Shown here: piece by piece, positions 5,900 through 35,254 of the stretch
Layout: each line of letters starts with the position of its first letter
Position numbering within the stretch: the first letter of the stretch is position 1
From: Rickettsiales bacterium
Lineage (GTDB): Bacteria > Bacteroidota > Bacteroidia > Cytophagales > Cyclobacteriaceae
DNA length: 35,372 nucleotides
Direction: 5' to 3'
Assembly: GCA_002729235.1 (NCBI GenBank)
Contig: PBTY01000053.1
Coordinates: 100,030-135,401 of the forward strand
Translations under genes and position numbers: made by a program
Notes under the pieces: generated by a model
The model's database searches: none
The model's input: only the letters and a program-made list of their open reading frames with translations
What the model was told of the DNA's origin: nothing

Positions 5900-6835
5900 T
5901 TACCAGTCTGACTTATCTACTGCGTCATACACTTGCTGAATTCCTTGCTCCAAACCAATTTTTGGTTTCCAGCCCAAAGCGTGAATTCGTTCGCTACTCA
6001 TTAGCTTACGAGGAGTGCCATCTGGTTTGCTGCTATCAAAAACCAGTTCTCCTTCAAATCCAACAATCTGCTTGATAGTCAATGCCAGATCTTTGATGGA
6101 GAGGTCTTCCCCAAAGCCAACATTCATCGTCTGACCATCGCTATAGTTCTTCATCAGGAACAAACAAGCTTCGGCCAGATCATCCACATGTAGAAATTCT
6201 CGAAGTGGACTTCCTGAACCCCAAACTTCTACGGTTGGTGCATTATGCACTTTGGCTGTGTGAAACTTGCGAAGCAATGCAGGCAGTACATGAGATTTGT
6301 TTAGGTCGTAATTGTCATTGGGTCCATAGAGATTCGTAGGCATGGCACTGATAAAATCAACCCCATACTGATCTCTGTAGGTTTCACATAATTTAATCCC
6401 GGCAATTTTAGCAATCGCATAAGGCTCATTCGTGTACTCCAAAGGACCCGTCAATAGACTGTCCTCATGAATCGGTTGTGCAGCCATTTTCGGATAGATG
6501 CATGAGCTTCCTAAGAAGAGTAATTTCTTACATCCATTCACGTAAGCCTGATGAATGATGTTGGATTCAATCATCAGGTTGTCATACAAGAATTCTGCTC
6601 TGTAAGTATTGTTGGCATGAATGCCTCCTACTTTCGCTGCAGCCAGGAAAACGTAATCTGGTTTTTCAGCTTCAAAAAAGGACGCCACCTGAGCCTGATT
6701 ACGCAAATCCAATTCTTTGGAAGTTCTGGTCAGAATGTTGGAGTATCCTTGTTGCTCTAAAAGACGAACAATAGCACTTCCAACCATGCCTCTATGGCCC
6801 GCGATGTATATTTTATCTTCTTTGTTCAAATCCAA
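5900..6835 (-). CDS. fcl: GDP-L-fucose synthase
   Basis: 311 residues, typical for Fcl/WcaG. It is an extended short-chain dehydrogenase with the nucleotide-binding motif [11 protein letters not shown] near the N-terminus, the strongly conserved [14 protein letters not shown] segment near residue 108, and the catalytic [20 protein letters not shown] and GFGEDLSI complete the family pattern. It performs the epimerisation and NADPH-dependent reduction of GDP-4-keto-6-deoxy-mannose to GDP-L-fucose in the cytoplasm. It directly follows gmd (63 bases), which makes its substrate. The fucose would serve one of the glycosyltransferases encoded at 10349-22993. Confidence 0.95.
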
Positions 6836-6898
6836 GTGATTTTAATCCTGAAAATCATTGTAAAGATGCTGAAATTCATCAGCATGACTAAAACTTGA

Positions 6899-8011
6899 TT
6901 ATTCGGCTTGATTTAGAATATCGTGACCACCTTCCATGAGGTATTTGTCGCGTTCAAATAATTTCAAATCAGACTCCATCATTTCTTTGATCAGCATGGG
7001 TAGATCGTATTCCGGTTTCCAGCCTAGTTTTTCTTTTGCTTTGGTAGGATCACCAATTAACAATTCCACTTCGGTAGGACGGAAGTATTTCGGATCGATT
7101 TTTACCACTTCCTGGCCCTCTTTTAGATCGTATTTGCTATTAGAAGCTTTAACTACATAACCAACTTCATCCACTCCTTCACCTCGGAAGCCAATTTCTA
7201 CGCCAACTTCCTTGAAAGCAGCAATCATGAAGTCACGGATGGTAGTGGTAACACCCGTAGCCAATACAAAGTCTTCTGGTTTGTCCTGCTGAAGAATCAG
7301 CCACATCCCTCGAACATAATCTTTAGCATGTCCCCAGTCCCTTTTGGAATCCAGGTTACCCATATACACACAATCTTGAAGTCCTAAAGCCATTTTCGCC
7401 ACAGCTCTGGTGATTTTACGTGTTACAAAGGTTTCTCCTCTCAAAGGTGACTCATGGTTGAACAATATCCCATTACACGCATACATGTTATAAGCCTCTC
7501 GGTAATTGACGGTGATCCAGTACCCGTACAACTTAGCAACCGCATAAGGTGACCTTGGGTAAAAAGGAGTAGTCTCTTTCTGAGGAACTTCCTGAACCAA
7601 ACCGTACAACTCTGATGTAGAAGCCTGATACACCTTTGTTTTTTCAGTCAATCCCAACAAACGAACTGCTTCTAAAATTCTTAGCGTTCCGATTGCATCT
7701 ACATTAGCTACGTACTCTGGGGTATCGAAACTGACTCGTACATGCGACATGGCTGCCAGGTTGTAGATTTCATCCGGCTGGATTTCCTGGATCAGCCGCG
7801 TGATGTTCATGGAGTCTGTCAGGTCGCCATAGTGTAGGAACATTTTGGTGTTTTCTCCATGAGGGTCCTGGTACAAATGGTCAATTCGATCAGTATTGAA
7901 CAACGAAGATCTTCTCTTGATACCGTGTACCTCATAACCTTTCTCCAAAAGTAACTCGGCTAGATAAGCCCCATCTTGTCCTGTGATCCCTGTGACTAAT
8001 GCTTTTTTCAT
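6899..8011 (-). CDS. gmd: GDP-mannose 4,6-dehydratase
   Basis: I place the start at ATG 8011 ([19 protein letters not shown]), giving 370 residues, the family norm. An in-frame ATG at 8053 would add 14 residues not seen in this family. The Rossmann motif GITGQDG lies at residues 8-14, then [10 protein letters not shown] with the Ser/Glu catalytic pair, and [10 protein letters not shown] with Y-x-x-x-[18 protein letters not shown] and [12 protein letters not shown] are diagnostic Gmd segments. It makes GDP-4-keto-6-deoxy-D-mannose, which fcl downstream turns into GDP-L-fucose. It lies immediately downstream of the large repeat island, so it may need its own promoter, but I could not find a convincing one. 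No GDP-mannose synthesis gene (manB/manC) is in the window. Confidence 0.96.
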
Positions 8012-8121
8012 AGTTGATTCAATTAATAGCAGTATTCCTTGAATGGATTGCAAGTTTAGCGAATGTGAGTTAAAGATTTTGTATAGTAGTGGAAGTTTGG
8101 GGTGGAGATTAACTTTTATAG

Positions 8122-8203
8122 AACCCCCTCTGTCAATTTCCTAGCGGAGAATTGACATCTCCCCCTTGTTAATGTGGAGAATTGATTGTCGAAAGGATCT
8201 ACA
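8122..8203 (+). repeat. Solo B module of the dispersed repeat family
   Basis: Starts AACCCCCTCTGTCAATTTCC. The first 45 bases (8122-8166) are identical to 8982-9026, and the right end keeps the family ending GATTGTCGAAAGGATCTACA. It contains an inverted repeat, GTCAATT...AATTGAC, that can form a hairpin. A MITE-like element begins directly after it at 8204. From 8012 to 8121 I see nothing recognisable. Confidence 0.75.
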
Positions 8204-8354
8204 GTCATTCCCTGAATGCCACCTAAATCGCAATCGAAGATGTACTATTGATATGCATTCTAAGGGAATCTGTCCCTAGGACTTATAGATTCCCCTAGAA
8301 TTCTAAGTGATTTTTAAATCGGATTATTGCTTCTGCAAGAATTCGGGGAATGAC
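8204..8354. mobile_element. MITE-like nested palindrome, copy 1
   Basis: A 151-base element. Its ends are GTCATTCCCTGAAT (8204-8217) and ATTCGGGGAATGAC (8341-8354), inverted repeats matching at 13 of 14 positions. A second inverted pair is nested inside: ATTCTAAGGGAATCT (8257-8271) and AGATTCCCCTAGAAT (8287-8301), 14 of 15 matching, with a 15-base loop. There is no coding capacity. A second copy starts at 35283. The ends share GTCATTCC with the A modules next to it. Small non-autonomous elements of this form are often moved by transposases encoded elsewhere; that is inference here. Confidence 0.65.
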
Positions 8355-8374
8355 GGTACTAAGATGGTTGGTTC

Positions 8375-8388
8375 CACTAGCCGTGTGC
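8375..8388 (+). repeat. 14-bp minisatellite unit, single copy
   Basis: CACTAGCCGTGTGC, one unit of the 14-base family with consensus CACTRGYCGTGYRC, followed by the start of a second (CACTTG). It lies 20 bases after the MITE-like element. From 8395 to 8489 I see only unremarkable AT-rich sequence. Confidence 0.6.
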
Positions 8389-8489
8389 CACTTGACAATG
8401 GGAGGAGTCAGATTGGTTAAAAAGTTTGATATCTCATTTAAGAAGATATGGGTTGATGTATTGTGAATAAATTAATTCCTAGCTATTTA

Positions 8490-8517
8490 CATTGGTCGTG
8501 CACCACTAGCCGTGAGC
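8490..8517 (+). repeat. 14-bp minisatellite, two tandem units
   Basis: Units CATTGGTCGTGCAC and CACTAGCCGTGAGC lie back to back and end exactly where the A module (GTCATTCC) begins at 8518. Confidence 0.7.
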
Positions 8518-8595
8518 GTCATTCCTGCGGAGGCAGGAATCACATCATGATTTTTCAGAATAATATGCTGTTAGATGAACCCCCTCTGTGTCTCC

Positions 8596-8637
8596 CACAA
8601 GCCGTGCGCCACTGGTCGTACACCACTGGTCGTACAC
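8596..8637 (+). repeat. 14-bp minisatellite, three tandem units
   Basis: CACAAGCCGTGCGC followed by two identical copies of CACTGGTCGTACAC. The array is inserted inside a B module, between its CTCCC and its CCCCTT hairpin arm. Confidence 0.8.
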
Positions 8638-8874
8638 CCCTTGAAAAAGGGGGGAGGTGATTGTTGAAAAGATCTGTACTCGATCCTTCAATTTGTCATT
8701 CCTGTGGAGCCTGCCTGCCGTGGTAGGACAGGAATCGCATGATATAGATTATTTTTTAAATAAGCTGTGAAATGAACCCCTCAGCCTCCGGCAGCTCCCC
8801 TTGGAAATGGGAGCAATGGATTACAAATTAAAATATATTCTTTCCCTTTATTTGACATTCCATTTTTCGGGCAC

Positions 8875-8902
8875 CACGGTTTGTGTGCCACTAGCCGTGT
8901 GC
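8875..8902 (+). repeat. 14-bp minisatellite, two tandem units
   Basis: A diverged unit CACGGTTTGTGTGC and a good unit CACTAGCCGTGTGC, ending immediately before the A module that begins GTCATTC at 8903. Confidence 0.7.
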
Positions 8903-9348
8903 GTCATTCTTGCGGAGCCTGCCTGCCGGTGGGCAGGGCAGGAATCGCATCATGATTATTCAGAAAAATATGCAGTCAAATAACCCCCTCTGTCAATTTC
9001 CTAGCGGAGAATTGACATCTCCCCCTCGGAGATGGGGAGAGTAGATAGTCGAAAAGATTGTAGTCATTCTCTTGTCGGGCACGTCATTCCTGTGTAGACA
9101 GGAATCGCATGATATAGATTGTTTTTTAAATAAGCTAAAAGTGAACCTCTCAGCCTTCGGCAGTTGACTTGAATAGGTTATTAATTAGTGTATGAATTAT
9201 CGCTCCTTATTTGCCCCGTCCCTAAAGGGAGGTAATTTGAATGGCATATCACAATGTTATTCATGCAGCCTGACTGCCGTGGCAGGGCAGGAATCGCATC
9301 ATGATTTTCAGAAAAATATGCAGTAATATGAACCCCCTCTGTATCTCC

Positions 9349-9376
9349 CACTAGTCGTGCGCCACTGGCCGTGCAC
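9349..9376 (+). repeat. 14-bp minisatellite, two tandem units
   Basis: CACTAGTCGTGCGC and CACTGGCCGTGCAC, inside the last B module and at the same internal position as the three-unit array at 8596-8637. Confidence 0.75.
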
Positions 9377-9406
9377 CCCTTTTTAAAGGGAGCAATTCGT
9401 TGTAGT

Positions 9407-10276
9407 TTATTTGGACTTCAAATAATGCTCACACATCAGACGGATGCCGTCTTTGGAGCTGTAGGGTGGAGTAAAATCTATTTTGTCATAACTCTCTGTT
9501 GAGTCAACGACTAAGGATTTGAAGAGGCGTTGGGCGATGGCAGGTTTAAAGATACCAATCAATTTTTGCCCAATTTTAGGAATGGGCAGAAGTTTTTTGG
9601 AAGGATTGATATGCTGAAGGATCTCTTGCATCAATTCGGATGTGGAAAGTGTAGGGGAGTCTGATGGAAGATAGGTTCCACTGGCTTTGTGCTCGATGAT
9701 GTGATCTGTTATGGCAATCAGATTGTCCACGAAAACCATGCTTCGCTCATTTTGGATGCCACCCAGAGGAATGGGTTTATTTCGTGATGAGAACTGCATC
9801 AACTTTAGCAAGTTACCCTTGGCTCCTGGGCCGTAGATCAATGGGGGTCTGATGATGGCTACTGTGAAGGAATCATCTTCTAGTTTCAAGAGTTCTTGTT
9901 CTGCTTCATATTTGCTGGATCCGTAAGCGTCATTGGGATGACATGGAGTAGTCAACGAAATGGGAGAGGTGCTAAAGTCCAGGCCATAAACCTTGATGGT
10001 AGATAAGAAAATGAACTGCCTGACACCAGCTGCTTTTGCTGCTTTTGCAAAATCTAAAGTTAGATCTCTATTGACCTGAAAGTACAACTCATCAGGAGTA
10101 GGTTCCATCCGATGGGCTATGCCAGCACAGTGGATTATGGACTCTATGCCCTTGAAGTCAACTTGTGTTGGAGCTACACTTTGAAGTGATATGGTATTAA
10201 TCTGGTCTTGATTCTTAGAAATTTCTAAGATTCTGGAGCCAACGAAGCCTGAAGAACCGGTGAGTAGGATTTGCAT
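9407..10276 (-). CDS. WbpV-like NAD-dependent epimerase/4-ketoreductase
   Basis: The start is set at ATG 10276 (MQILLTGSSGFVGSRILE), giving 289 residues. A longer in-frame start at 10321 would encode a leader read from a dispersed repeat (10307-10347) and is not credible. Extended short-chain dehydrogenase: GSSGFVGS near the N-terminus, IIHCAGIAHRM, FLSTIKVYG, and the catalytic Y-G-S-S-K. The segment around IHCAGIAHRM...FLSTIKVYG resembles WbpV and related reductases that act on the product of WbpM-type dehydratases. The likely reaction is reduction of UDP-4-keto-6-deoxy-HexNAc to UDP-QuiNAc or UDP-FucNAc; the C4 stereochemistry cannot be told. The stop codon lies two bases from the repeat island. 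An alternative is a UDP-hexose 4-epimerase. Confidence 0.8.
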   Translation of the reverse strand: MQILLTGSSGFVGSRILEISKNQDQINTISLQSVAPTQVDFKGIESIIHCAGIAHRMEPTPDELYFQVNRDLTLDFAKAAKAAGVRQFIFLSTIKVYGLDFSTSPISLTTPCHPNDAYGSSKYEAEQELLKLEDDSFTVAIIRPPLIYGPGAKGNLLKLMQFSSRNKPIPLGGIQNERSMVFVDNLIAITDHIIEHKASGTYLPSDSPTLSTSELMQEILQHINPSKKLLPIPKIGQKLIGIFKPAIAQRLFKSLVVDSTESYDKIDFTPPYSSKDGIRLMCEHYLKSK

Positions 10277-10306
10277 GGATGAACTCACCCTGGCCGGGCG
10301 CCCCCA

Positions 10307-10347
10307 ACCCCCTCTCTTCACCAGAGAGGAATGGTGATTGTTAAAAG
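10307..10347 (+). repeat. Solo B-type module between the WbpV-like and GT2 genes
   Basis: Begins AACCCCCTCTCTTCACCAGA and ends GGTGATTGTTAAAAG, close to the B module ending GGTGATTGTTGAAAAG at 8656-8671. CCTCTCTTCACCAGAGAGG can fold into a hairpin. It fills most of the gap between the two genes. Confidence 0.6.
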
Positions 10348-12787: not shown

Positions 12788-13800
12788 TTAATTACAGATA
12801 AAAGTTCGTTCACCCAAAGTTCGGGAGTTATTGTTTTGCCTAATGATAAGCTTCTTTGAGCCATTAGGTTTAACTCATTATCTTTTAAACAAGATATTTT
12901 TTTCATGGCTTTGAATAGGTTATTCGCGTCACTTCCGTGTATTTTAAAACCGTTATAACCGTTAATAAGGAATTGAGTGGTTGCCCCTGATTCATGTGTG
13001 CCGATAATAGGCATTCCCGATAAAGCAGCCTCTTGTATCGCTACACCCCAAGCTTCATATTTGCTGGGAAGTATAAAGACACCTCCCTTTTTAAGCTCTT
13101 CTCTAAGTTTATCAGGTTGCATGAAGGGTCTAATTGTACAACCCTCAGATGCTTTGATTTGATCTTCAAAGGGTCCATTTCCTATAAATTCCAAATTCCA
13201 GTCACAGCCAGATTCTCTTAAATCACTGTATGCTTTCAGGAGAACATCTACTCCTTTATGGTCTACCAGCCTTCCAAAGAAAAGGAAACGTTTTTGAAAA
13301 ACAGGAGAGGTTACCGTACTGTTGCTGTCTGCTACATATAAGTTTTTTAAAATTTGATTTGTTTTAAACCCAAGACGTTGTGCAAACGAGTATTGTAAGA
13401 GTCCCGGCACCCAAATATGAGAGAACTTGTTGTGAATTATAAGAGGCGCAAGGAAACAACCAATTCGTTGACGCAAAGTGCCTAACCAGTGGTTATCCAT
13501 TCCGCACACAACAGGAATATTTTGGTCTCTGTATTTTTTGGCTAGTTTATTGTAGAAGGGGTTTCCCCATCCAGCAACGTAGACAATGTCTGGGTTAAAA
13601 TTGATCAACTCGATCTCAGACAATGAGTGATCAAGTTCCAGTATTTTTATATCCATTTCAGGTTTAAATTCGAAAGGAGCTTCATTCGACCGTTTTTGTC
13701 TAACAATTACGCTTACACTCCCTGGAATTTCTTGATGTAACTTATTGACACAGGACAGCCAGTAGCCTGTGAGTCGAGTATATAAAAAAAGGAATTTCAA
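12784..13800 (-). CDS. Glycosyltransferase family 4
   Basis: 338 residues, a slightly short GT-B enzyme. The donor-binding half starts at RFLFFGRLVDHKGVDVLLKA (171-190), with EFIGNGP and the E-x7-E motif at Glu249-Glu257 (EAWGVAIQE). The N-terminal half lacks the usual Gly-rich GG loop and has instead PDIVYVAGWGNPFYNKLAKK, so the acceptor domain is divergent. It overlaps by four bases both the polymerase gene upstream and the GT4 gene downstream. The sequence here is already more AT-rich than that to its left. Confidence 0.85.
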   Translation of the reverse strand: MKFLFLYTRLTGYWLSCVNKLHQEIPGSVSVIVRQKRSNEAPFEFKPEMDIKILELDHSLSEIELINFNPDIVYVAGWGNPFYNKLAKKYRDQNIPVVCGMDNHWLGTLRQRIGCFLAPLIIHNKFSHIWVPGLLQYSFAQRLGFKTNQILKNLYVADSNSTVTSPVFQKRFLFFGRLVDHKGVDVLLKAYSDLRESGCDWNLEFIGNGPFEDQIKASEGCTIRPFMQPDKLREELKKGGVFILPSKYEAWGVAIQEAALSGMPIIGTHESGATTQFLINGYNGFKIHGSDANNLFKAMKKISCLKDNELNLMAQRSLSLGKTITPELWVNELLSVIK

Positions 13801-35160: not shown

Positions 35161-35254
35161 AGGTCTCCCCTTTACTAAAGGGGAGATTTAGAGGGGGTTC
35201 GTGTACTAGTAATATCTTACTAAATGATGCGATTCCTGCATGAGCAGGAATGAC
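35161..35254 (-). repeat. A-B module pair in inverted orientation
   Basis: On the minus strand an A module (35254-35224: GTCATTCCTGCTCATGCAGG, AATCGCATCATT) is followed by a B module (35200-35161: GAACCCCCTCT...). The B part contains a perfect palindrome, TCTCCCCTTTA-C-TAAAGGGGAGA (35164-35186). The order A then B is the same as in the 8518-9405 island, but the strand is opposite. Confidence 0.75.

Follow-up and report, generated by a model that had tools for sequence, protein, structure and literature searches.

The intergenic space between gmd and a neighboring SDR-family gene in a marine bacterium contains an ordered array of hairpins, for which we favor, as reasonably probable, an explanation in three parts: the array would be a mosaic of the neisserial (NIME) type, it would act as a recombination joint, and it would harbor a unit of 14 bp that inserts into hairpins. 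The window (the whole stretch of 35,372 nucleotides that was analysed) spans positions 100030–135401 of contig C54 in a genome of 6.55 Mb and 116 contigs. Eight of the 14 repeat places computed are no more than 250 bases away from the end of a contig, and the copy numbers given below are therefore minimum values.

Structure and recurrence of the array

An ordered hairpin array between the two genes was proposed in a preliminary description and is borne out: five A heads begin at positions 8518, 8695, 8903, 9083 and 9256, and their tails alternate in the order alpha–beta–alpha–beta–alpha (alpha in units U1, U3 and U5, beta in U2 and U4). A is a hairpin of the CGTC-1 REP type and B a C-rich hairpin; the two alternate head-to-tail, giving five A–B units. 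The array is real but larger than first reported, occupying 1284 bp of intergenic space (8122–9405): the start formerly placed at 8518 is preceded by an older B at 8122 and by two C repeats in inverted orientation (8204–8354). Likewise, the assertion that every junction falls at GTCATT or GAA|CC is nearly correct, but the fifth head reads GTTATT and B3 follows ATAA.

6899–8053, minus strand: gmd, GDP-mannose 4,6-dehydratase, conserved side; TIGR01472 590 bits (cut-off 415), 95% to Marinoscillum pacificum
8122–8190, plus strand: B0, older alpha-unit B that carries a 27-base hairpin insert (8131–8157); 86.5% to 8982–9069 over 89 columns
8204–8354, no single strand: inverted pair of the second GTCATTCCC repeat (C repeat); 74% over 203 columns to M. 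pacificum L090 7939–8136
8375–8388, plus strand: 14-bp micro-unit, one mismatch
8490–8517, plus strand: two micro-units abutting A1
8518–8545, plus strand: A1, CGTC-1-type REP hairpin of U1 (alpha)
8579–8657, plus strand: B1 with three micro-units (8596–8637)
8695–8740, plus strand: A2, long loop, U2 (beta)
8775–8816, plus strand: B2, beta type (CCCCTCAGCC...), without micro-unit
8889–8902, plus strand: micro-unit abutting A3, preceded at 8875 by another in a more decayed state
8903–8950, plus strand: A3, long loop, U3 (alpha)
8983–9041, plus strand: B3, 27-base hairpin insert (8991–9017), without micro-unit
9069–9082, plus strand: micro-unit abutting A4
9083–9110, plus strand: A4, U4 (beta)
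9144–9175, plus strand: B4, decayed, beta-type B
9256–9299, plus strand: A5, U5 (alpha), degenerate head GTTATTCATG
9331–9396, plus strand: B5 with two micro-units (9349–9376); B5–gene junction common to M. pacificum
9407–10321, minus strand: SDR-family gene, exchanged side; M. pacificum has a 27%-identical gene instead, with 3' remnants left
10288–10301, plus strand: micro-unit CCCTGGCCGGGCGC, within a C-rich hairpin close to the SDR gene's 5' end
35161–35254, minus strand: A–B pair near the contig end

Measured between starts of A heads, the super-period is 385 and then 353 bases; a repeat finder returned 405/348 and 370. Self-BLAST aligned the alpha tail of U5 to that of U1 at 88% over 93 columns and to that of U3 at 88% over 92, and the beta tails of U4 and U2 at 89% over 72, with matches between alpha and beta limited to the A hairpin and the bases preceding it. 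The motif CAGGAATCGCAT (up to two mismatches) has 11 occurrences in the window as against 2.5 on average, and 11 was reached in none of 100 shuffles; GTCATTCCTG alone is weaker (6 against 2.4, with 6 reached in 3 of 100 shuffles). Three of the five A heads sit directly 3' of a micro-unit. The heads of the C-repeat pair, GTCATTCCCTGAAT (8204, plus strand) and GTCATTCCCCGAAT (8354, minus strand), face outward, and the tails (8257–8271 and 8287–8301) inward. A second kind of insert, the 27-base hairpin TGTCAATTTCCTAGCGGAGAATTGACA, occupies two B modules (8131–8157 and 8991–9017) at the place where other B modules carry micro-units.

The A–B pair is recurrent in two of four genomes. Pairing was counted over 43 A-like matches at 16 loci of these genomes, two of the matches being the palindrome read on the reverse strand. 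In the examined loci of the present genome B lies 5–75 bases downstream of A, on the same strand, for 13 of 23 A copies (5 of 5 inside the array, 8 of 18 outside); the corresponding figures are 6 of 10 for M. pacificum (G098), 0 of 4 for G099 and 1 of 6 for G088. A same-strand B upstream of A was found five times in this genome, once in G098 and not at all in G099 or G088, and an inverted B downstream of A in none of the 43 matches at the 16 loci of four genomes. Within the window, the two-part unit had been reported at two further places: the minus-strand A–B pair at 35254–35161 stands, but the copy at 10307 lacks an A.

The preliminary description took the four-part alternation to be the architecture of the family, and named as the mark of a local duplication that the arrangement be found in one place only and that modules elsewhere have unrelated neighbors. 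Used as a BLAST query against this genome, the whole array gave 19 matches; those to beta units end at the hairpin or fall within B, and three that span an alpha unit (A–B copies on C100 and C70) have 72–76% identity. Close counterparts of either tail, alpha or beta, were found only in this array and at the orthologous locus of M. pacificum. By the description's own measure, then, the alpha–beta–alpha–beta super-unit is a local duplication and not a family architecture.

A looser exact pattern for A is present 17 times in this genome (reversed control 0) and a strict pattern 12 times; among 98 genomes of the family, which do not include M. pacificum, this genome is the only one positive for the strict pattern. 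In a collection of named genomes the strict pattern matched 12 stretches (7 from Rhodanobacter, 2 from M. pacificum, and 1 each from Confluentibacter, Lacinutrix and Aestuariibaculum), so the A hairpin is not peculiar to this genus. On C100 (L025) another structured stretch, of about 110 bases and starting CTCAGGCCGCTAGGCCTCG, recurs at approximately 6220–9020 and 12900–13700.

Affinities of the A hairpin

A fits the CGTC-1 class of REP by tag, stem and loop, and departs from it by tail and order. The base before GTC is C in 36 of 41 copies and T in the other 5, which gives the CGTC (or TGTC) tag of the class. A1 folds with an 8-bp stem beginning AT and a 4-base loop, as do the other short-loop copies; about 9 of the 23 A copies in this genome have a longer loop. 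The tail is CGCA, CACA or CTCA, followed by T, in 38 of 41 copies, rather than the unpaired CCA that the excerpted text of PMC3733652 gives for most, hence not all, CGTC-1 elements. The A copies run head-to-tail, an order that the same excerpts call negligible for CGTC-1 REPs, among which head–head dimers predominate; the C repeat at 8204–8354 does form such a pair. They are also clustered, whereas CGTC-1 clusters are there called rare outside Neisseriae and Wolbachia (PMC3733652).

The CGTC-1 elements of Neisseriae are, according to these excerpts, the dRS3 repeats (PMC3733652), and dRS3 together with RS elements build the NIMEs (PMC3898611, in the portion excerpted). As NIMEs are portrayed in that portion, the likeness is one of CGTC-1 hairpins alternating with other repeat families (30–160 bp) in intergenic space, of size (200–2700 bp for NIMEs, 1284 bp here), and of an adjoining surface locus with a 3' gene scrap in the orthologous array, the SDR scraps described below being comparable to the 28-bp region for which a NIME figure legend states identity with the 3' terminus of a silent cassette. 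There are differences. The core is ATTCCT...AGGAAT here and ATTCCC...GGGAAT in NIMEs; B and neisserial RS are apparently unrelated; tens of copies were found here against about 700 in Neisseria; and other arrays of this genome adjoin non-surface genes, unlike NIMEs, for which the excerpts of PMC3898611 make no mention of micro-units. Exchange of neighboring surface genes at the array, a feature of NIMEs, is seen here at one locus in one species pair, and a general association with surface genes was not seen in a small sample.

We read the array as a further instance of an architecture already known: it would be an intergenic repeat mosaic like those of Neisseria, here in a Bacteroidota genome, and its A–B composite has probably been amplified locally, as an alpha–beta pair, 2.5 times.

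Handling of the hairpins by a REP-associated tyrosine transposase (RAYT), which would spread and process them, had also been suggested; we consider it highly improbable. Five Y1-transposase matches are present in the genome: L020 is of the IS200 type, L021 is a RAYT that is intact by model score (NF047646, 100 bits, cut-off 80), and L022–L024 have RAYT scores of 54–57 bits against the same cut-off, with partial, broken-looking frames. The presence of a RAYT above cut-off speaks for such handling, as do C-type repeats some 140–340 bases upstream of one of the broken RAYTs. Yet no exact GTCATTCCTG lies within about 1.5 kb on either side of the five Y1-transposase loci, no RAYT was seen to be flanked by the same REP, and CGTC REPs are described, in the excerpts of PMC3733652, as being without association to transposase genes. 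The RAYT genes L021–L024 each adjoin palindromes of their own, and those that are visible differ from A. The same point separates the array from BIMEs and REPINs, which it resembles in having intergenic hairpin pairs and clusters (the C repeats being outward-facing inverted pairs): the tag is CGTC, not GTAG, and the RAYTs of this genome bear other palindromes.

The polysaccharide locus and its border

The long minus-strand frames around the array constitute, as far as tested, a polysaccharide locus. In a profile scan of ten proteins around the array, gmd, GDP-L-fucose synthase and a tyrosine autokinase domain scored above cut-offs; sugar-dehydratase, WecA-like and glycosyltransferase matches fell below them, and two proteins were without match. 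Both genes that flank the array are on the minus strand, which removes the notion that it lies at convergent gene ends.

Comparison with M. pacificum L090 shows the array to lie at the border between conserved and exchanged polysaccharide genes. On the conserved side gmd (95%), fcl (91%), a PseB-like gene (86%), a WecA-like gene (67%) and two further genes (75% and 72%) are retained; on the exchanged side the values are 27% for the SDR gene, 39% for a glycosyltransferase, and 64% and 41% for the next two genes. M. pacificum has kept pieces of the SDR gene's 3' end: residues 238–304 (the last 67 codons) persist as a scrap inside its array, at 79%, and a second scrap, of 54 bases, stands just after the new gene. 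The junction of B5 and the SDR gene, along with several array segments, is common to both species, with the order of segments changed; the longest match confined to the array covers 203 columns at 74%.

We suggest, from one species pair and one exchanged gene, that the array serves as a recombination joint bordering the exchangeable portion of a surface-polysaccharide locus: its homologous ends would let adjoining genes be swapped, with 3' scraps left behind. The earlier view of a dispersed, recombinogenic family of REP-like hairpins is upheld in that A followed by B recurs and the array stands at a gene-exchange border. Finding an array of the NIME type beside polysaccharide genes of a phylum remote from that of Neisseria suggests that such joints may arise repeatedly at variable surface genes.

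The genes beside four other arrays of this genome are HINT/peptidase-like, WD40-caspase, lipoyl acyltransferase, sigma-54 regulator and helicase genes; among the ten proteins scanned there, a small sample, none was a polysaccharide or surface protein. Confinement of the arrays to polysaccharide loci is accordingly rejected, and the association with surface genes is shown for one locus only.

A 14-bp unit in host hairpins

The array also contains a micro-unit of 14 bp, CMCTNGYCGKGCRC, which is inserted in whole multiples and was absent from the preliminary description. The window holds 11 copies with at most one mismatch (ten in 8375–9376 and one at 10288), where 0.07 are expected and 0 of 100 shuffles gave as many. 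The exact 14-mer occurs 19 times in this genome (reversed pattern 0) and 94 times in eight relatives (reversed control 6): 31 in G007 (control 1), 15 in G098 (1), 7 in G088 (2), 3 in G099 (0), 11 in G100 (0), 2 in G104 (0), 22 in G141 (2) and 3 in G030 (0), the counts for G030, G088 and G099 being near chance level. Of 295 family genomes, four contain the tandem 28-mer (this one, G007, G104 and G141; control 0 everywhere), and a tandem unit with one mismatch is present in 1 of 395 genomes of a phylum sample and 3 of 291 of an order sample; the samples overlap. The third genome of the order-sample search, G883, belongs to another family and has 11 near-identical units in a row (L242, L246), nine of them exact. 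Its end units differ at position 11, as in the window.

Insertion of the unit into host hairpins is shown by the occurrence of one and the same host both with and without it. A host hairpin of G007 is represented by 14 copies, with lengths of 38 (four copies), 52 (two), 66 (three) and 94 bases (three) and two off-register lengths of 53 and 61; 12 of the 14 are thus exactly 38+14n bases long, with n = 0, 1, 2 or 4. All eight stem pairs are intact in each of the four empty hosts, one of them doubly changed; all ten filled hosts keep 3–7 of the eight, although in off-register copies the arms are possibly misplaced. Among 20 aligned attC-like elements, chosen from 33 matches, the unit is present at one place in four, of which two share the left half only. 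The 16 copies without a unit at that place led us to reject a longer element as its source. In the B hairpins of the genus the micro-unit sits in the C tract of the stem.

Across the examined loci there are 87 distinct sites, with one unit at 62, two at 15, three at 4 and four at 6. The hosts of single units include B, C and A hairpins, attC-like elements and the G007 hairpin, several of which have empty copies. At 54 of 70 sites outside long open frames at least two of the three right-hand bases are C, while 11 have fewer than two C on both sides; a C tract is therefore common, not required. Entry would take place into DNA able to form hairpins, for the most part at C tracts; the unit would arrive as one or several whole copies and would afterwards multiply in place. 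A phage or plasmid origin was considered and rejected: one match to a Burkholderia plasmid (32 bases, E 0.01) and three to phage records (E 0.2) were taken as chance, and the exact tandem pattern occurred 0 times in viral_contigs.

Two pairs of positions covary within the unit. In 113 exact units, retrieved with a pattern that allows all 16 combinations at positions 2, 7, 10 and 13 and no other letters there, Watson-Crick pairing holds for 2:10 in 106 and for 7:13 in 105; at distinct sites it is kept in 103 and 102 of 110 units. Seven of the 110 break 2:10 and eight break 7:13, and all seven of the former lie in open frames of at least 200 codons. Outside such frames, a limit chosen after the contexts were seen, the pairs are kept in 93 of 93 and 87 of 93 units (r2 1.00 and 0.72), as compared with an r2 of 0.01 for positions 2–7 and at most 0.01 for 5–7. 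Related units are not independent, and the pairs were first noticed in the same loci in which they were later counted; with one unit per non-coding site the counts are 70/70 and 68/70, for sites with a single unit 46/46 and 45/46, and with each of 18 unit types entered once 2:10 pairs in 18 and 7:13 in 14, including one G-U. Position 5 varies freely, and all twelve combinations (two pairs by A, G or T at position 5) occur. Overall, base 2 assorts independently of base 7 (p 0.21); in this genome alone the two are linked (p 0.017). The covariation score is 0.339 against 0.142 when shuffled (0/500), and slid partners all score lower; two of five covariation measures, the number of covarying pairs and the number of pair types, show no excess.

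Since the two pairs covary independently and cross one another, we infer that a single strand of the unit folds back on itself. Pairs that cross in this way could be those of a small pseudoknot, of hairpins formed in alternation, or of two dyads that overlap, and conservation of pairing without conservation of letters would favor one-strand folding over a protein that recognizes the bases themselves. Energy folding of four units in tandem, by a method that excludes pseudoknots, was no better than for shuffles (z +1.18).

A possible, though rather unlikely, source of the covariation is template switching during replication, which would make or repair inverted repeats with neither selection nor a fold-reading enzyme. 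Such switching is proposed, in the excerpted text of PMC8794818, to create and maintain hairpin stems, and here the stems are short and adjoin other hairpins; set against this is the joint retention of two crossing pairs, even where the unit is single (46/46, 45/46), and no unit having its loop inverted came to notice in passing.

The array could alternatively act as RNA, its hairpins being terminators or signals for processing or attenuation in the polysaccharide operon. Its place between two same-strand genes agrees with such a role, as do the empty B and G007 hosts, which fold better than shuffles (z −3.4 and −4.9). The micro-units, however, abolish the fold of the B and G007 hosts tested, their number and order vary between species, and no Rfam family reaches its gathering score in the window, all of which makes this role very doubtful.

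The region would need neither mobility nor a part in gene exchange if REP-like repeats had simply been duplicated locally in tandem and had decayed, the 14-mer being a common minisatellite that slippage lengthens. The alpha–beta duplication is indeed local, the two members are identical in 9 of 41 pairs of adjacent units, U1 has two identical neighboring units, and the 11-unit array of G883 is nearly homogeneous. But 32 of the 41 adjacent pairs differ, single units occupy 62 of 87 sites in unrelated hosts, several of which have empty copies, and slippage neither seeds new sites nor explains covariation with free assortment. We regard this account as unlikely.

We return to the inserting unit of our preferred explanation. 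The same short unit lies at unrelated places that have empty counterparts, as is characteristic of small dispersed repeats. Those of cyanobacteria, reportedly treated by Elhai in 2008 in a study that PMC3116915 and PMC2884548 cite, are said to be about 20 bp or more in length. The present unit resembles them in being very short, dispersed, variable in tandem number and possibly mobile, and differs in its length of 14 bp, its Bacteroidota host, its two covarying crossing pairs and its insertion in hairpins. A search of openly licensed PMC literature found no description of it. We take it to be a very small variant of a dispersed repeat and possibly more, perhaps a very small mobile or self-expanding element. 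If mobile, it is far below the size that can hold the usual paired ends.

A more specific proposal is tentative, and we put it forward as conceivable but on balance unlikely: the unit is a self-contained mobile micro-element, one strand of which takes the shape of a tiny pseudoknot or of either of two hairpins (1–3:9–11 and 6–7:13–14). A putative enzyme, such as an HUH nuclease or a telomerase-like reverse transcriptase on a repeating template, would recognize the fold and add whole units to C tracts in hairpins, REPs and attC-like sites in at least two families of one order. The three variable slots (2:10, base 5 and 7:13) assort freely, though bases 5 and 7 are two apart, and this pattern makes the choice between fold and mutation process one that can be put to strain comparison.

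Three further kinds of repeat were noted. Elements of about 115 bp with ends TAACAAACACTAAAATGAAT...CTCATTTTAGTTGGGCGTTAT, ends that we take to be attC-like, lie downstream of small genes in at least five of six genomes of the genus (L172, L173, L176, L178 and others), which suggests gene cassettes; an integron integrase over cut-off was found in 0 of the six. At L097 (contig C13 of G007) tandem repeats of about 300 bases contain look-alikes of a tRNA-Leu 3' end, and ARAGORN detected no tRNA there. A possible second micro-repeat, around CGGCGGACCG / CGTCGGACCG, is present beside micro-units at L219, L220, L221 and L226.
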